DNA from: a virus
DNA length: 24,839 bases
Strand: one strand, 5' to 3'
Virus record (IMG/VR): IMGVR_UViG_3300010150_000155
Location: 1 to 24,839 of that record
This document shows positions 2,662-22,505 of this stretch, piece by piece (position 1 is the stretch's first letter; each line of letters starts with the position of its first letter). Both the position numbers and the translations under genes were made by a program. The notes beneath the pieces were generated by a model. That model saw only the letters and a program-made list of their open reading frames with translations. It did not search any database and was not told the origin of the DNA.

Positions 2662-2669
2662 TATTTATA
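2662..2669 (-). promoter_or_regulatory. T4-type late promoter (TATAAATA) for gp8
   Basis: Exact TATAAATA on the minus strand in the 45-nt gap between the stop of the giant gene (2676) and the gp8 start (2630), 31 nt before the ATG. The predicted leader is AT-rich and carries the GGGAAG ribosome site. No hairpin with a U-run separates the giant gene from this promoter, so read-through from upstream is likely as well. Confidence 0.8.
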
Positions 2670-16310: not shown

Positions 16311-16946
16311 TTATTTACTATCTAGGTTTTTTACTTCGTACATATAGTGATCCGAAGTCTCCATTCTTCTTTTATTTTCTACGCTATACACTGTAGTATC
16401 AATCTCAAATCCAGGATTCTCTGTAATACGATTAAATGTCCATGCATTATCGTACCAAATAATACGATTATTAGGATATGCATAATAATTACCAGTCTCT
16501 ACCTTAAACAGGTGAGCACACTTATGTTCTGGTGTTTCTGAGTAATTTAGATCGGGAACACCCTTGTTTTCCCACGACCAATCCAACGTGAACATATAAT
16601 CACCCAATGCTTTTTTACCATCAGGTCGAATTAGTTGAGCTTGCAAACCACCAAGTCTCTGTCTCCTCTGTACGTCAACATAAGGACTAAAACAGTCCCA
16701 GTACATAATGTCTTCCAATGGTTCAATAACCGCATCTGGTTTCCAACAGAACGCATGTAAAGGTCGTCTTGTCCAGTTAACACCATTCTCTAAAAATGCT
16801 TCAAACAATGGAACACGTTTTTCCATGCTAGCAACACTATGGACATCTGCTTTGGTAACTTCACCATGTCCTTTTTTATGATTGTAAAGGAACTCATTAC
16901 GGATGTAACAAGACCAGTCAGGTAAACTGTGATTTAAGTAAGCCAA
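16311..16946 (-). CDS. Conserved-looking protein of unknown function (211 aa), TTG start
   Basis: Starts MAYLNHSLPDWSCYIRNEFL. It is rich in Trp and Tyr (for example NWTRRPLHAFCWKP, MYWDCFSPYVDV, FTLDWSWENKG, NNRIIWYDNAWTFNRITEN), which suggests a compact folded globular protein without membrane segments. I do not recognise a named domain or catalytic motif. The TTG start is well supported by AGGAG 7 nt upstream and no ATG nearby fits. It overlaps the SET-domain gene by 13 nt and is followed 11 nt later by the 44-aa gene, so it belongs to the same transcript. A structural or host-takeover role is equally possible. Confidence 0.75.
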   Translation of the reverse strand: MAYLNHSLPDWSCYIRNEFLYNHKKGHGEVTKADVHSVASMEKRVPLFEAFLENGVNWTRRPLHAFCWKPDAVIEPLEDIMYWDCFSPYVDVQRRQRLGGLQAQLIRPDGKKALGDYMFTLDWSWENKGVPDLNYSETPEHKCAHLFKVETGNYYAYPNNRIIWYDNAWTFNRITENPGFEIDTTVYSVENKRRMETSDHYMYEVKNLDSK

Positions 16947-17338
16947 TCTCTTTCTCCTAAAAAATAGTAATCAGTAAGTTCTATACCTTCAGGAATATCC
17001 TTAATAGCGTATAGTTTGCCCGTGTCTTTATTATATGCGACATTTGGGTCATGTGAGTGATTGATATAGTATTGAGTACTTAATTTGTCCAAATCACTAT
17101 CAATCCAGAACCCTTCTTCATCGCAATAAGTCAGAGTTTCAAGTCTAGATCTTAAACGATCATCAACATCAGTCCATAGTACATATTCCTGTTTTGCAGG
17201 AGTGAATATACATGTATCCTTAGGAATGTTTATTAAAGAGAAAACACCCACTCCTTCACAGACTTTACTGGGGGCAAGGTAAGTGTATAAAATTAAAGAA
17301 TATAATCTATGGACTGGGGAGTTCATAATCGGGTTCAT
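16934..17338 (-). CDS. SET-domain protein, putative protein-lysine methyltransferase (134 aa)
   Basis: SET-domain landmarks are visible in order: VCEGVGVFSLINIPKDTCIF (26-45), the GxG-type strand and turn that begins the fold; YYINHSHDPNV (90-100), the NHSxxPN motif that helps form the S-adenosylmethionine pocket and pseudoknot; and AIKDIPEGIELTDYYFLGE (111-129), corresponding to the usual 'AxRDIxxGEELTxxY' with the catalytic Tyr. The length matches a minimal SET domain with no pre- or post-SET zinc modules. The expected chemistry is methyl transfer from AdoMet to a lysine; the substrate is unknown. Start may be Met1 (17338) or Met5 (17326); neither has a strong ribosome site, and the gene overlaps the 71-aa gene by 20-32 nt, so coupled translation is likely. 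Confidence 0.75.
   Translation of the reverse strand: MNPIMNSPVHRLYSLILYTYLAPSKVCEGVGVFSLINIPKDTCIFTPAKQEYVLWTDVDDRLRSRLETLTYCDEEGFWIDSDLDKLSTQYYINHSHDPNVAYNKDTGKLYAIKDIPEGIELTDYYFLGERDWLT
16954..16958 (-). promoter_or_regulatory. Ribosome binding site AGGAG fixing the TTG start of the 211-aa gene
   Basis: The minus strand reads AGGAG followed by 7 nt and then TTG-GCT. The site is inside the last codons of the SET gene. It decides for the unusual TTG start over internal ATGs. Confidence 0.7.
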
Positions 17339-17522
17339 TATATTTCAAAAATTCCCAAAAAGTGAGTTTCATCTCTTTTTGAGTCATACCACAGTTTGCT
17401 GCTGCAGCGGGAAGAGTCATTTTTGCACGAAAAAGTGCTTCATTGGACTCTTTAACGTTTTCAGGTGTTGTTTTAACTTTTGATTCAACTATTTTTTTAG
17501 ATCTATTGTTAGATAATCTCAT
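17307..17522 (-). CDS. Small helical protein, possibly helix-turn-helix (71 aa)
   Basis: Basic N-terminus (MRLSNNRSKKIVESKVKTTP) followed by a helical segment, residues 33-58: AKMTLPAAAANCGMTQKEMK then LTFWEFL. The pattern of a helix, a Gly turn (NCGMT) and a second helix resembles a helix-turn-helix of the kind seen in small DNA-binding or sigma-like domains, but this is only suggestive. The ATG overlaps the stop of the 56-aa gene as ATGA. No other function is visible. Confidence 0.7.
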   Translation of the reverse strand: MRLSNNRSKKIVESKVKTTPENVKESNEALFRAKMTLPAAAANCGMTQKEMKLTFWEFLKYNEPDYELPSP

Positions 17523-17689
17523 TCAAGTGCAGATGCAAGACCTTCTGTAAGACGATTTACGTTGTAAGCCATGTATCGATACCCAGTACCAATATACAGT
17601 TGTCCTAGGACCACTGAGACGGTGGCTAGACCCCAAAAAATGTAGTAGAACCTAGACTTGACTTGATATTTTAATTTTTTGTTTTTCAC
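17519..17689 (-). CDS. Small single-span membrane protein (56 aa), GTG start
   Basis: Frame from a GTG at 17687-17689: a Lys-rich N-terminus (MKNKKLKYQVKSRFYY), a hydrophobic segment (about 16-34, IFWGLATVSVVLGQLYIG) and a short C-terminal part (YMAYNVNRLTEGLASALE). The charge pattern predicts one membrane helix with the positive N-terminus inside. GGAG lies about 7 nt before the GTG, the gene overlaps the 67-aa gene by 38 nt and ends in ATGA with the 71-aa gene, so start and end both fit an operon. Function unknown; small phage membrane proteins of this sort could act on the host envelope or on photosynthetic membranes. Confidence 0.72.
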   Translation of the reverse strand: MKNKKLKYQVKSRFYYIFWGLATVSVVLGQLYIGTGYRYMAYNVNRLTEGLASALE

Positions 17690-17855
17690 CAGAATACTCC
17701 GTATTTAATATATGTTCAACTGTAGTAGCTACATCATTCATTGCATCTCTCAATACAGGTCTTTGTCCTGATTCTTGAATACAATCGTTTATATCATCTG
17801 TCAGAGACCATCTCCACAAACTTAAATCTGTAGAATACCACAGTTGTATTTTCAT
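17652..17855 (-). CDS. Small protein of unknown function (67 aa)
   Basis: Starts MKIQLWYSTDLSLWRWSLTD and continues with INDCIQESGQRPVLRDAMND, then VATTVEHILNTEY and a basic end. It looks like a short beta-strand pair (KIQLWYS, WRWSL) followed by amphipathic helices. AAGG lies 6 nt before the ATG. The ATG overlaps the TAA of the basic 47-aa gene by 1 nt (TAATG). No domain recognised. Confidence 0.72.
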   Translation of the reverse strand: MKIQLWYSTDLSLWRWSLTDDINDCIQESGQRPVLRDAMNDVATTVEHILNTEYSGEKQKIKISSQV

Positions 17856-17998
17856 TACTTACCTTGACCCCTATAACGTTTTTTAGCATCGTTTCGTGAA
17901 GTTGAACCATACTTAGTATGCTTTCCACGACCCTGACGAGATTTTTTAGGTTTAGACTCGATATGAGTACCACCAGTTAAAGAAGACCCACGTGCCAT
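17855..17998 (-). CDS. Small highly basic protein (47 aa), first gene of the cassette
   Basis: Reads MARGSSLTGGTHIESKPKKS, then RQGRGKHTKYGSTSRNDAKK and RYRGQGK: almost free of hydrophobic residues and very rich in Lys, Arg, Gly and Ser, so probably disordered and nucleic-acid binding. I recall proteins of this type in cyanomyovirus genomes, always without known function. The ATG lies about 20 nt after the predicted start of the strong leftward sigma-70 promoter (18027-18055), and ACGGA is a modest ribosome site. As a lysine-rich product encoded with a SET-domain enzyme it is one conceivable substrate (speculation). Confidence 0.78.
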   Translation of the reverse strand: MARGSSLTGGTHIESKPKKSRQGRGKHTKYGSTSRNDAKKRYRGQGK

Positions 17999-18026
17999 AA
18001 TGATCCGTACCGTAAATTACTCAATA

Positions 18027-18055
18027 ATTATACCACAGGCTTGACAGCATGTCAA
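18027..18055 (-). promoter_or_regulatory. Perfect sigma-70 promoter (leftward) for the small-gene cassette
   Basis: Minus strand: TTGACA (18050-18055), 17 nt, TATAAT (18027-18032), with TGG directly before the -10 (extended -10). All twelve consensus bases match. Predicted start near 18020, about 22 nt before the ATG of the 47-aa gene. This is a host-polymerase promoter, so expression is expected early. Confidence 0.85.
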
Positions 18056-18069
18056 AATTTCTCTATAAT
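18041..18069 (+). promoter_or_regulatory. Perfect sigma-70 promoter (rightward), interleaved with the leftward one
   Basis: Plus strand: TTGACA (18041-18046), 17 nt, TATAAT (18064-18069), again twelve of twelve. The two -35 boxes make the palindrome TTGACAGCATGTCAA (18041-18055). A transcript from here would start near 18076 and run antisense to the PAAR and 1359-aa genes; no convincing plus-strand gene follows. The palindrome could instead be an operator, which would make one of the promoters coincidental. Confidence 0.65.
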
Positions 18070-18092
18070 AACTCTGTCAGGGTTCAGACAAA

Positions 18093-18422
18093 TCAGGCAT
18101 ATAGAATCTTAGGGGTTGGAGTTGCTATATTTAGTCTTGGCACTGATGGTGGATTGGGATCTCCAATATGAGATGACATACGACCACAAATGAACACCTT
18201 ACTGATTCCCAGAGCGACTCTAGGACAGACACAAGGACTACAACCCTTACCACAACAGTCAATCCCTGGAGCAGGTACTAGAACCTGTCCTGTGGTCAAT
18301 TCAGGCAATCCACATAGAAGTTCTTTTTGTACTACTGGTGTGACGACAAAAGGAAAACATTTACAACAACCTAATACTGAAGGTCCATCACCTCCACCTA
18401 ATGCTTGTACTGGTCTTACCAT
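18093..18422 (-). CDS. PAAR-like baseplate spike-tip protein, Cys-rich (109 aa)
   Basis: Pro/Gly/Cys-rich sequence of about the PAAR length (T4 gp5.4 is 97 aa). Short beta-repeats are visible: SVLGCCKCFPFVVTPVVQ, LTTGQVLVPAPGIDCCGKG, CSPCVCPRVALGISKVFICG and RMSSHIGDPNPPSVPRLNIA. Such repeats fold into a sharp cone with a metal near the tip that caps the spike (gp5) trimer. Ten cysteines and one His (SHIGD) are present, so the metal site may use cysteines rather than the usual His set. GGGAG (18430-18434) lies 7 nt before the ATG, which follows the stop of the 1359-aa gene by 3 nt. A position before gp25 fits a baseplate hub component. No exact Pro-Ala-Ala-Arg motif is seen, so the call rests on pattern and context. 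Confidence 0.6.
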   Translation of the reverse strand: MVRPVQALGGGDGPSVLGCCKCFPFVVTPVVQKELLCGLPELTTGQVLVPAPGIDCCGKGCSPCVCPRVALGISKVFICGRMSSHIGDPNPPSVPRLNIATPTPKILYA

Positions 18423-18425
18423 TTG

Positions 18426-21400
18426 TTAACTCCCGTAATTGGTATTTGATGAAGTAGATCCGTTAGATTGCGAATCTTGAGTTGAATCTGTACTATAAGC
18501 CCAATATTGTTGGACAGAATAACCTTTTTGATAACTATTTACCATACCACCATTATTTTTAAATGGTTCTAGTGAAGTTTCAAAAACATATGATGTATCA
18601 AACTGTGATCTTACGATTCCTGTAAAACTAGTTGCAGTTTTTCCAGAATAGTAGATAATTTCTTCACCATCATAAAAATAATGTTCTCGTTCATTAACTA
18701 GTTCATTTGGATCGCCTGGTTTACCCATTTGTAAATAAATTTCAGTTTTACGAATCCATTTTGGAACTATAAGGTAACCAGATGACAAAAATAGAGATGT
18801 ATCTTCAACTAAAATACTATTTGATGTCGGATTTAAGTCTTCAGTCATTTTTGTGGTAACTGGAGAAAGCTGAATTGGATTTCCTTTAGAAAATGCAGAT
18901 TTTGCAATATTTTCAGAAGTTGTTACAAGATCAAAATCATATTCTTTAACATAAGATGACTGGAATTCATAATTAGCACCTTTCCAACTCTTAGATGGAT
19001 ATACTTCACCTTGACTACTTAAATTGATTTCTTGAATATACTGAACACTAGTTTGAGGATCTGTGTAGAATACAGGTATTTGAGTTACGCTATTCGATCC
19101 AATAGAAACTCCAGTGATACCTGAAGGACTTTCGTTTAATCTTATTGTATTAGCAAATGTTAAAAATCTTCCACTTCCTGTAGTGTCTGATAAACTACTG
19201 CCAGCGGGCATATTAACAAGATAGAATCTATCAGCTCCAGTTCTATATGCGGTATATGATACTCCAGTTGAGAGAGGTGATGGAGCAGTTGATCCAAAAG
19301 AAACTTGGAAATATGTTCCATATGAAGTAAGATCCGCACCATTAATCCTAAATTCTCCTCTTCTTTTATCAACAACGTCAATTGTTACTCCAGCACTTGG
19401 AATTACTGATGTATTGTATAAAGTTCCCCCATTATTCACAGCAACAATGTATGATGGTGATCCAGCAGAGTTTTCACCCTTCAAAACATCAAAAGTTGCA
19501 CCAGATCCACTTGCATTGTCAGTATTTGCGCCACCAACAGATGTATAGAGAGTTTCTGGAGTACCAGTAATAGTGAAATTAGTCAATCCACCTGATCTAT
19601 CGATTTCAGTAACTGTAATTAATAAATCATTTGTACCATTTACACCACCCAAATTAGATCCTTGTACAGTAATTACATCATTCAACTGATATCCCACTCC
19701 AGATGTACTTTCATCAGCAACGGTAACAACATAAACGTCATCTGATGTGGTCTGAGTATCTGACCATTCAATATTAATTTTAAAACCTGCGGCAGTGTTT
19801 AATGGAGTTTGACCAGAATAAACTGTAGAATCTGCAGATACACCAGAACTATCAACAGTAGTAATATTACCACTACCATCAACTGCGGTAACAGTTACAA
19901 TTAAATCATTAGTTCCGTTAACTCCACCTAAAGTAGAACCAAGGAAAGTAAAGTCTTGACCAACTATAAACCCACTTGAACCACTATTTGCTAATGCTGT
20001 CGTATAAGATCCACCAGATCCGCCCCCAGTAATGTTAAAAGTAGGTCTAGTTTGCGTAGTTGTGAGACTACCAGTCGATGAATATGACATTAATGGTGCA
20101 GAACCGCCAAAAATCTCAAATCCGCTAGATTTAACCGCACCTGTATTGTTTTCTACGTCCTTCACAAGGACATAAAGGTCATTAGCAGGGGATGTTCCAC
20201 CTAATGAAGTACCCAAAATGCGGATTTCTGTCTCGCCAGCGTTCTCTGACTCGACTGTTGGTGATCCATAGATCCATCTTGGAGTAACTTCTATGTTAAT
20301 TGTCTCTCTGAGTGAATTTTTTCCGTAATCTTGGAAGGATGAGTCATCATCAAGTGAAACATCGTCCGCAATAAACGTAATATTGTCTTGTGGAACTGGC
20401 AAATCGCGATAAGCGTTCTTAATTAAGAGTGTAGAAGACTCATTTTGACCATCAATTGTTGAAATTGACGCAACTCCATCAATACTTTGGACAGTATCGG
20501 GTAAATCTGGTAACAAAGTGCTCAAATCATCAGGAGTTTCATTAAATTTACTCAAAATGTTGTTAATTAATTGAACAGATGCAGTATCTTGTCTCAATTC
20601 AAGGTTAATATCATCAGTAGATCCATTATTTCCAATGTTTTTTCTTAATTTGTTGGATGCAATTTCATTAGATGCTTCGAGTTGCGTTATAGTTTGATCA
20701 GTAATGACTGTATTTTCTTTAGCAATGACATCAGAGATGTCAGAAATGCTTTTTCCTTCTGATACTAGTTGATCAAGTCTATTTTCAATGGTTTCTAAAG
20801 CAGATTGAGATGCACTAGAAGAGAATTTTGTACCATTTGGTGCATCACCAGTGTTTTCTGGTACATCAATTTGTGGTTTGAGGAACTTATCACACTCATC
20901 AGTTACAAATTGATTCTCTAACTTACTATCTTGTAATGTCTTAAGGTCATTGATGCCAGGAAAATTTGATTTTAGATCACTAAGTCCTTCTGGGATGATA
21001 GGTGTAAACTTATTAAAGATAGGTTCATATGCAATATCTTTATGACTGCTTACAATAATACCAACCATTGCTGCACGATCAATGATTCCATAACCAGCAA
21101 GAGCAGTAACTACTGCACCACTTAAATTACCAGTGTAATTTGCATTCTTTGTGAAATTATTACCAGTAACTACAGTTGGTCCTACATCTTCAGTAATTTT
21201 GAAGGTAATCTTAACTTTTCCTCTGCCGCCATTAAAAGTTTTTTGGAATGATGTACCAGTTGCAGGTAAAGTACCAGTAAATGATTCAATATACCACTTA
21301 GAGTCGAATTCACCACCATCATTGATGGGTTCTGCTTTCATGACAAGTGATCCACCATTGAAATTTACATTGATGGTTCGAGTGCCAGTACTATCAAAAA

Positions 21401-22505
21401 CTGCATTCCCGCCTTCATCATCAATTTTAACGTTTGCCCATGACCCAGAACCCGTTGTAGTAGTCCTAAACTCATTAAAATGCATACCAGGTCCTTCTAC
21501 CTTGAATGCAATGTTCTTAGAAGAACTAGTCGCATTACTAAATTCTGCATAACAGAAATTTGTATCGGGTACTTGGTTTATATTTGCATCTGAAATGATA
21601 ATATTTTTAATGAGTTTTGTATTTGTAGCATCAAGACCAATGACACCTGCAGGGAAATTTAATTTAATTGTTCTTGCACTTGTATTAATACTTTTAACAG
21701 TTGTGCCAACAGGAATTCTTGTATTACCAAATCCAATAATATTATCACCTACATTAATATTTTTAATACTGCTTATTTTTAAAATACTATCACCAATCAC
21801 TCTATGGACTTGTCTTCTTTCAGCTTTTGTATCAATGAAATTTGCTACTTTAGTTACAGTATGTCCATTCAATAAATCTCCTACTTGTAATACAGTACGA
21901 GTATCTGATGCATATGTAAAAATTAAACTTGCTTTATGTGTTGCAGTCCAATAAACATATGATGTCTCAGTTGCATTTGGTACTCCACTTACATTGATAT
22001 CAATTTTACCTAATGTAAAATTATTTGTTACCATAACTCTACGAACACATGCACCAGCAGTCGCTGCAACTGATGCCGCTGATGCTAATGAAACATCAGT
22101 CGTGGGTTCACCTGTGGCAGTTTCGTAAATTGGTGTGTACTTAACTAAAACTTCTTTCGTAGATGTATGTGATGTTGGATATTCCCATAGATTATAAAAA
22201 TACCCTTCATCAGTTCCTTTATCTAACCTACAATAATTCTCGAAGATTGGTTGTCCATTCTCAATATTATATTGTTGAAACCTAGGATCATTACTATTAT
22301 CCCACGCTTCCCTTAATGTACCATTGGTTAATGTAGGTATTACTTCATTATACTGTGTCTCAATATAATCATACGATTCACTATTAAAGCTGGACTCATA
22401 TCCACCTTCATCCTGCAAAGACGCGCTGGGACACTCGATCTCAACGGTCTTCTTGACTTCCTCATACCTGGGTTGACAACTAAACCCTGAATTGACAGTT
22501 CCCAT
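18426..22505 (-). CDS. Large virion structural protein with beta-repeats (1359 aa), probable baseplate component
   Basis: No signal peptide or enzyme motif. Order of parts: N-terminal globular region (1-150, ends in an Ala-rich stretch ASAASVAATAGACVRR), beta-rich region (150-500), helical, coiled-coil-like region (about 560-660; ALETIENRLDQLVSEGKSIS, ITQLEASNEIASNKLRKN), then three LGG...NDLxVxV repeats (about 760-790, 851-880, 943-973) and a C-terminal module (1225-1300; SNSILVEDTSLFLSSGYLIV ... GEEIIYYSGKTATSFTGIVR) that resembles modules of the giant protein. The last 20 residues are Ser/Asn-rich. It is co-transcribed with the PAAR-like gene 3 nt downstream, which suggests hub, spike or baseplate attachment. 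I cannot match it to a numbered T4 gene. Confidence 0.72.
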   Translation of the reverse strand: MGTVNSGFSCQPRYEEVKKTVEIECPSASLQDEGGYESSFNSESYDYIETQYNEVIPTLTNGTLREAWDNSNDPRFQQYNIENGQPIFENYCRLDKGTDEGYFYNLWEYPTSHTSTKEVLVKYTPIYETATGEPTTDVSLASAASVAATAGACVRRVMVTNNFTLGKIDINVSGVPNATETSYVYWTATHKASLIFTYASDTRTVLQVGDLLNGHTVTKVANFIDTKAERRQVHRVIGDSILKISSIKNINVGDNIIGFGNTRIPVGTTVKSINTSARTIKLNFPAGVIGLDATNTKLIKNIIISDANINQVPDTNFCYAEFSNATSSSKNIAFKVEGPGMHFNEFRTTTTGSGSWANVKIDDEGGNAVFDSTGTRTINVNFNGGSLVMKAEPINDGGEFDSKWYIESFTGTLPATGTSFQKTFNGGRGKVKITFKITEDVGPTVVTGNNFTKNANYTGNLSGAVVTALAGYGIIDRAAMVGIIVSSHKDIAYEPIFNKFTPIIPEGLSDLKSNFPGINDLKTLQDSKLENQFVTDECDKFLKPQIDVPENTGDAPNGTKFSSSASQSALETIENRLDQLVSEGKSISDISDVIAKENTVITDQTITQLEASNEIASNKLRKNIGNNGSTDDINLELRQDTASVQLINNILSKFNETPDDLSTLLPDLPDTVQSIDGVASISTIDGQNESSTLLIKNAYRDLPVPQDNITFIADDVSLDDDSSFQDYGKNSLRETINIEVTPRWIYGSPTVESENAGETEIRILGTSLGGTSPANDLYVLVKDVENNTGAVKSSGFEIFGGSAPLMSYSSTGSLTTTQTRPTFNITGGGSGGSYTTALANSGSSGFIVGQDFTFLGSTLGGVNGTNDLIVTVTAVDGSGNITTVDSSGVSADSTVYSGQTPLNTAAGFKINIEWSDTQTTSDDVYVVTVADESTSGVGYQLNDVITVQGSNLGGVNGTNDLLITVTEIDRSGGLTNFTITGTPETLYTSVGGANTDNASGSGATFDVLKGENSAGSPSYIVAVNNGGTLYNTSVIPSAGVTIDVVDKRRGEFRINGADLTSYGTYFQVSFGSTAPSPLSTGVSYTAYRTGADRFYLVNMPAGSSLSDTTGSGRFLTFANTIRLNESPSGITGVSIGSNSVTQIPVFYTDPQTSVQYIQEINLSSQGEVYPSKSWKGANYEFQSSYVKEYDFDLVTTSENIAKSAFSKGNPIQLSPVTTKMTEDLNPTSNSILVEDTSLFLSSGYLIVPKWIRKTEIYLQMGKPGDPNELVNEREHYFYDGEEIIYYSGKTATSFTGIVRSQFDTSYVFETSLEPFKNNGGMVNSYQKGYSVQQYWAYSTDSTQDSQSNGSTSSNTNYGS

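Follow-up and report, generated by a model that had tools for sequence, protein, structure and literature searches.

In phage lambda, the OOP RNA made from the pO promoter is a short RNA that ends at a terminator, and in cyanophage S-PM2 CfrI is associated with psbA and with a homing endonuclease. For the T4-like cyanophages, the Syn9 transcriptome of Doron et al. 2016 reportedly contains a novel element, conserved within this group, that controls early genes. CfrI itself is the name given to an antisense RNA of S-PM2 (PMC9964418). In bacteria, Warman, Grainger and colleagues have described bidirectional promoters, in which near-symmetric sigma70 elements yield RNA from both strands and the polymerases exclude each other; the -10 elements overlap reciprocally, the divergent starts lie 7-25 bp apart and the additional RNA is in many cases a non-coding antisense transcript (PMC12825309, PMC10268837). 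The E. coli examples tested show low basal activity (PMC12825309, PMC10268837), and competition matters only if the promoters are strong (PMC12825309).

Here, we analysed a 24,839-nt fragment of a T4-like cyanophage (the window, i.e. the whole stretch of DNA studied), which carries gp25, gp6 and gp8-like baseplate genes and for which similar DNA is found almost entirely in Synechococcus or Prochlorococcus phages. Like the bacterial bidirectional promoters, its promoter pair at 18027-18069 has sigma70 elements on both strands, and from the geometry two polymerases are predicted to exclude each other. Unlike in those promoters, which share the -10, the -35 regions are interleaved and the -10 boxes are separate, lying 31 bp apart with predicted starts about 56 bp apart. 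Moreover, in contrast to the weakly active E. coli examples, both promoters have the full consensus and should compete strongly. As with lambda OOP, a promoter stands just past a gene 3' end, beside replication genes, with an RNA that would be antisense to that end; here, however, no strong terminator was found and the partner is an interleaved divergent promoter. With CfrI the locus would have in common a cyanophage antisense RNA, which is predicted here, but CfrI is not linked to this element. The element of Doron et al. 2016 may be the one described below, of which Syn9 has exactly two copies. If so, the element would be less new, but the interleaved antisense arrangement would not.

Results and Discussion

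The segment 18027-18069 reads ATTATA-N8-TTGACA-N3-TGTCAA-N8-TATAAT and is symmetric around a 3-nt loop, with 8 nt on either side. The leftward promoter (18027-18055, minus strand) has its TTGACA at 18055-18050 and its TATAAT at 18032-18027, with a TG before the -10, whereas the rightward promoter (18041-18069, plus strand), the core of the conserved cyanomyovirus element, has TTGACA at 18041-18046 and TATAAT at 18064-18069. A spacer of 17 nt separates the boxes in both, within the 16-18 nt of sigma70/SigA-type promoters, and both look host-type. The 12/12 agreement with TTGACA-N17-TATAAT on both strands and the shared -35 palindrome, which a sequence-only reading of this DNA had pointed out, are thus confirmed. 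The palindrome, TTGACA-GCA-TGTCAA (18041-18055), is built from both -35 boxes; TTGACA-N3-TGTCAA occurs once in the window and in none of 100 shuffles, and its loop varies in relatives. Predicted starts lie near 18020 (minus) and 18076 (plus), each 7 nt past its own -10. Exact promoters number two, against 0.07 expected per window from shuffling, and no shuffle contained two. Between 8000 and 24839 the pair provides the sole 12/12 promoters, while weaker matches amount to 63 against 69 expected, i.e. chance level; hence, the pair alone stands out.

The minus-strand promoter lies directly upstream of a small-gene cassette, and it is the predicted driver of these genes, in line with the sequence-only reading. 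All are on the minus strand: first a 47-aa gene (phrog_516; 17855-17998) with a homolog at Syn9 57795-57929, then genes of 67 aa (phrog_2818; 17652-17855; present in at least 80 viral contigs), 56 aa (phrog_2000; 17519-17689) and 71 aa (phrog_1920; 17307-17522). On the other side, a cysteine-rich 109-aa gene (18093-18422, minus strand), which is conserved in contigs L003-L011, turns its 3' end toward the rightward promoter, followed by a 1359-aa gene (phrog_26996; 18426-22505, minus strand) as the next antisense target. The PAAR label given earlier to the 109-aa gene could not be reproduced, as neither Pfam nor PHROG returned a match. Relatives of this gene are encoded by only nine environmental loci and by none of the phage records, and its structure model is uninformative (pLDDT 31.5). 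As side observations, a 134-aa SET-domain gene (PF00856, E = 1.9e-10; 16934-17338, minus strand), unusual for a phage, has similar DNA in Synechococcus phage Sf-CH1b. T4-type late promoter sites (TATAAATA) occur only twice in the window, at 1050-1057 and 2662-2669 (minus strand) upstream of the left-end baseplate genes, and none adjoins the 109-aa or 1359-aa genes.

To what extent the pair is constrained can be seen in L003-L008, contigs whose version of the adjoining 109-aa gene is 92-100% identical and which retain both promoters. An alignment of five related sequences shows no change in any of the 24 hexamer columns, whereas 11 of the 19 spacer and loop columns are invariant (Fisher p = 5e-4); the latter comprise none of the three in the loop, three of eight in the right flank and the entire left flank. 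The plus-strand -10, whose fate in close relatives had been singled out beforehand as the point to check, is not lost in L003-L008, and both promoters are under constraint. The downstream motif described below has decayed in L006 and L007. More distant relatives of the 109-aa gene (L009-L011, 72-74%) lack the rightward promoter and have a single leftward promoter in a different intergenic region; the rightward promoter is thus not universal. Overall, the overlapping signals are probably a conserved, real source of antisense RNA and not a chance palindrome. That AT-rich intergenic DNA merely mimics promoters would agree with the chance frequency of the weaker promoter-like sites, but the expectation of 0.07 exact promoters per window, the conservation across families, which already refutes chance at the sequence level, and the spacing compensation discussed below make this reading extremely improbable.

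The rightward promoter belongs to a discrete element. Among the matches listed in a search of viral contigs for the palindromic promoter, many loci carry AACWCTGTNAGGGTTCAGA after the rightward -10, which defines a conserved element of about 49 bp: TTGACA-N17-TAnAAT followed directly by AACWCTGTNAGGGTTCAGA, as in the window copy. The conserved discriminator and initial transcribed segment, AACTCTGTCAGGGTTCAGA (18070-18088, plus strand), covers approximately positions -6 to +13 relative to the predicted rightward start. Across IMG/VR and phage loci the motif stands directly 3' of a -10 in 107 of 109 matches, and only in L205 and L012 does it occur without a promoter. With a 49-bp weight matrix (PSSM), for which the defining copies score 49-67 bits, the window copy reaches 60.0 bits at 18070 and the next best site in the window -7.6. 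Syn9 contains exactly two elements (57.1 and 44.9 bits; next best 4.5). On the minus strand of Syn9, the place equivalent to the rightward start is at about 123,698, close to a 12/12 plus-strand promoter of g55 at 123,718, and another predicted start lies at about 52,776 on the plus strand. These large score gaps argue for a discrete element and not the tail of promoter-like noise. All 17 records searched, including Syn9, P-SSM2 and S-CREM1, hold one to three copies (S-PM2 two, S-CAM1 one). Syn9 also has further 12/12 sigma70 promoters that lack the downstream motif, at 18628, 19075, 129672, 162446, 163318 and 58902 (L255-L258); the one at 58902 (minus strand) is antisense within gp6.

A search of 84,980 genomes for host copies gave seven motif matches, about as many as the estimate for chance (roughly seven); the pattern required GGGTTCA, so that diverged forms could escape. 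Only one match, L262, has the full promoter, and it seems to be a contig of phage origin within a MAG; others are inverted repeats in MAGs. Within the reach of this pattern, the element is limited to cyanophages and absent from hosts. A host origin of the motif was rejected, since the matches are near chance and one is a cyanophage-like contig. In the literature, the motif letters were matched only by primer-type sequences. A T-arm-like resemblance of GGGTTCAGA was also considered and dropped, as the A58-equivalent is a G in most cases and there is no CCC partner after it.

The commonest site of the element lies between a methylamine-type (methylamine utilization, MethU) gene and g55, the gene of the late sigma factor, with uvsY-uvsW-MethU and g55 adjoining it and the neighbouring methylamine gene and g55 on one strand. 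The element opposes these genes, with the 3' end of the methylamine gene first in its path and uvsW next, and the adjacent leftward promoter serves g55-g47-g46. The window follows the same plan with other genes: the 109-aa and 1359-aa genes lie in the path of its element, and its leftward promoter would serve the small-gene cassette. Among 92 distinct copies, which represent fewer independent lineages, 66 are antisense to the adjoining gene, 17 are sense and 9 are unclear. The antisense copies face MethU-uvsW, phrog_358 (a 2056-aa family), the virion structural protein phrog_692 and small genes of unknown kind, whereas the sense copies precede RusA-like resolvase, GIY-YIG, CpeT and 2OG/ferrochelatase-type genes. 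In L143, L148 and L166, solo copies face the 3' end of a phrog_358 gene (about 2056-aa family) in the antisense direction. The proposal that rightward firing would make an antisense RNA is hence strengthened at the sequence level: the promoter class is widespread, conserved and usually antisense.

The leftward partner is likewise conserved. Thirty distinct copies were chosen solely by right promoter, palindrome and downstream motif, and 28 of them have a perfect leftward TATAAT, compared to a background of 0.27%. Of 64 g55 loci, 61 have a leftward promoter that matches at 10 or more of the 12 positions, whereas about 4% of random 120-nt stretches contain one. The gap between the -35 boxes is 3 or 4 nt and the flank compensates (a gap of 4 goes with a flank of 7, a gap of 3 with one of 8), such that promoter spacers stay at 16-17 nt across copies and the rightward spacer is constant at 17. 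Thus, promoter spacing is held, and not the spacing of a palindrome or operator. This bears on the idea that the palindrome serves a dimeric regulator as its operator, with the promoter matches being secondary. A perfect 6+6 inverted repeat at the -35 position is what such an operator would look like, but its arm spacing changes between 3 and 4 while promoter spacers hold, solo copies of the rightward promoter lack a second arm, and the coincident and back-to-back classes have no palindrome. We regard the operator as very improbable, and the spacing compensation led us to reject it.

In relatives, the same promoter pair is interleaved, coincident or non-overlapping, and a tree of 93 g55 proteins requires at least five changes between interleaved, coincident and back-to-back geometry on supported branches. 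The interleaved form is seen at 62 of 93 distinct g55 loci, a sample enriched for that class by the search patterns, from which class frequencies cannot be read while the repeated change of geometry holds. Since the geometry was altered repeatedly and the pair retained, mutual exclusivity is not a conserved property. The conserved feature is the nearby divergent pair and not the shared -35, and the palindrome at the -35 boxes has the look of close packing. The sequence-only reading had instead proposed a mutually exclusive switch; in a true switch, the shared -35 palindrome would be selected so that one direction silences the other, separating early from late. Simultaneous occupancy is indeed ruled out by the overlap, competition between polymerases lets strong overlapping promoters repress each other (PMC12825309), and the interleaved geometry is common in the enriched g55 sample. 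However, the pair was kept through at least five geometry changes, the loop is free to vary, and both promoters are host-type in look, hence there is no known regulator choosing between them. A dedicated switch is therefore not supported as stated and appears clearly unlikely. With full-consensus promoters, competition is likely, and it would yield alternation and not a latch or stable choice.

The RNA made from the rightward promoter is most likely non-coding. A 79-aa plus-strand ORF opposite the 109-aa gene has lost its start in L006 and L008 and contains a stop in L008; since this frame is broken, a protein-coding rightward transcript was rejected. No RNA family in Rfam matched above chance, and no strong rightward terminator follows the promoter in the window. 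Cyanobacteria are not known to have Rho, which makes a long antisense RNA plausible.

The short extent of the conservation, in turn, could point elsewhere. Past the -10 only about 19 nt are conserved, which are intergenic in the window, and the RNA body is not. In T4, oriF lies near uvsY and uses an origin-type primer transcript. By analogy, the rightward promoter and its first bases might serve a purpose other than antisense, either as a replication-origin-type primer or in support of the leftward promoter, where a short RNA or a signal for polymerase pausing would open the DNA. The commonest site next to uvsY-uvsW-MethU and g55, the exclusion of the RNA body from conservation and the presence of a strong terminator in just 4 of 92 copies would fit such a role. 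Against it, additional copies precede ordinary sense genes and the first transcribed bases contain no conserved hairpin (a CTG/CAG stem pairs in 53 of 92 copies, and the commonest variants break it). The cumulative GC skew of Syn9 rises near-monotonically, without a turning point at the element, and as a test of an origin there it says little. We consider a role of this kind in place of antisense transcription rather unlikely. The conserved first bases may nonetheless take part in replication priming or promoter escape.

Conclusion

The explanation that we favor, with a probability of roughly 0.55, is a divergent pair of early, host-type promoters, of which the rightward arm is a conserved antisense promoter and the overlap a matter of packing. 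According to this explanation, the T4-like cyanophage would use a compact divergent pair of strong sigma70/SigA early promoters. Leftward firing would transcribe the small-gene cassette, which is located between late baseplate genes, and rightward firing would yield a non-coding transcript opposite the 109-aa gene that, if unstopped, also becomes antisense to the 1359-aa gene. Because two polymerases cannot share the -35 region at once, the promoters would be in competition and fire alternately. Their overlap would be a packing solution and not a regulatory principle; the conserved principle would be an early antisense promoter at the 3' end of the adjoining gene. In T4, uvsW is a late gene, which would fit an early antisense RNA that holds late functions down.

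A broader view, which we offer as a tentative and rather doubtful extension, is that T4-like cyanophages possess a dedicated class of early antisense promoters, marked by the conserved bases from -6 to +13 and sitting where genes of the late type have their 3' ends (the uvsW/MethU cluster, large virion genes), often back-to-back with an early promoter. These would keep the late programme silent until gp55 takes charge, and the window would hold a relocated copy guarding a structural gene.

In a passage of PMC5780444 that cites Doron et al., T4-like cyanophages are described as lacking T4-type middle promoters and motA and/or asiA. Should rightward transcription occur, the -35-sharing geometry would join the -10-sharing bidirectional promoters known from bacteria, and T4-like cyanophages would have a conserved cis-antisense layer right beside the gene of their late sigma factor. 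If this is true, the exact sequence and the coordinates in Syn9, S-PM2, P-SSM2 and S-CREM1 would allow the separation of early and late expression to be examined in RNA-seq.
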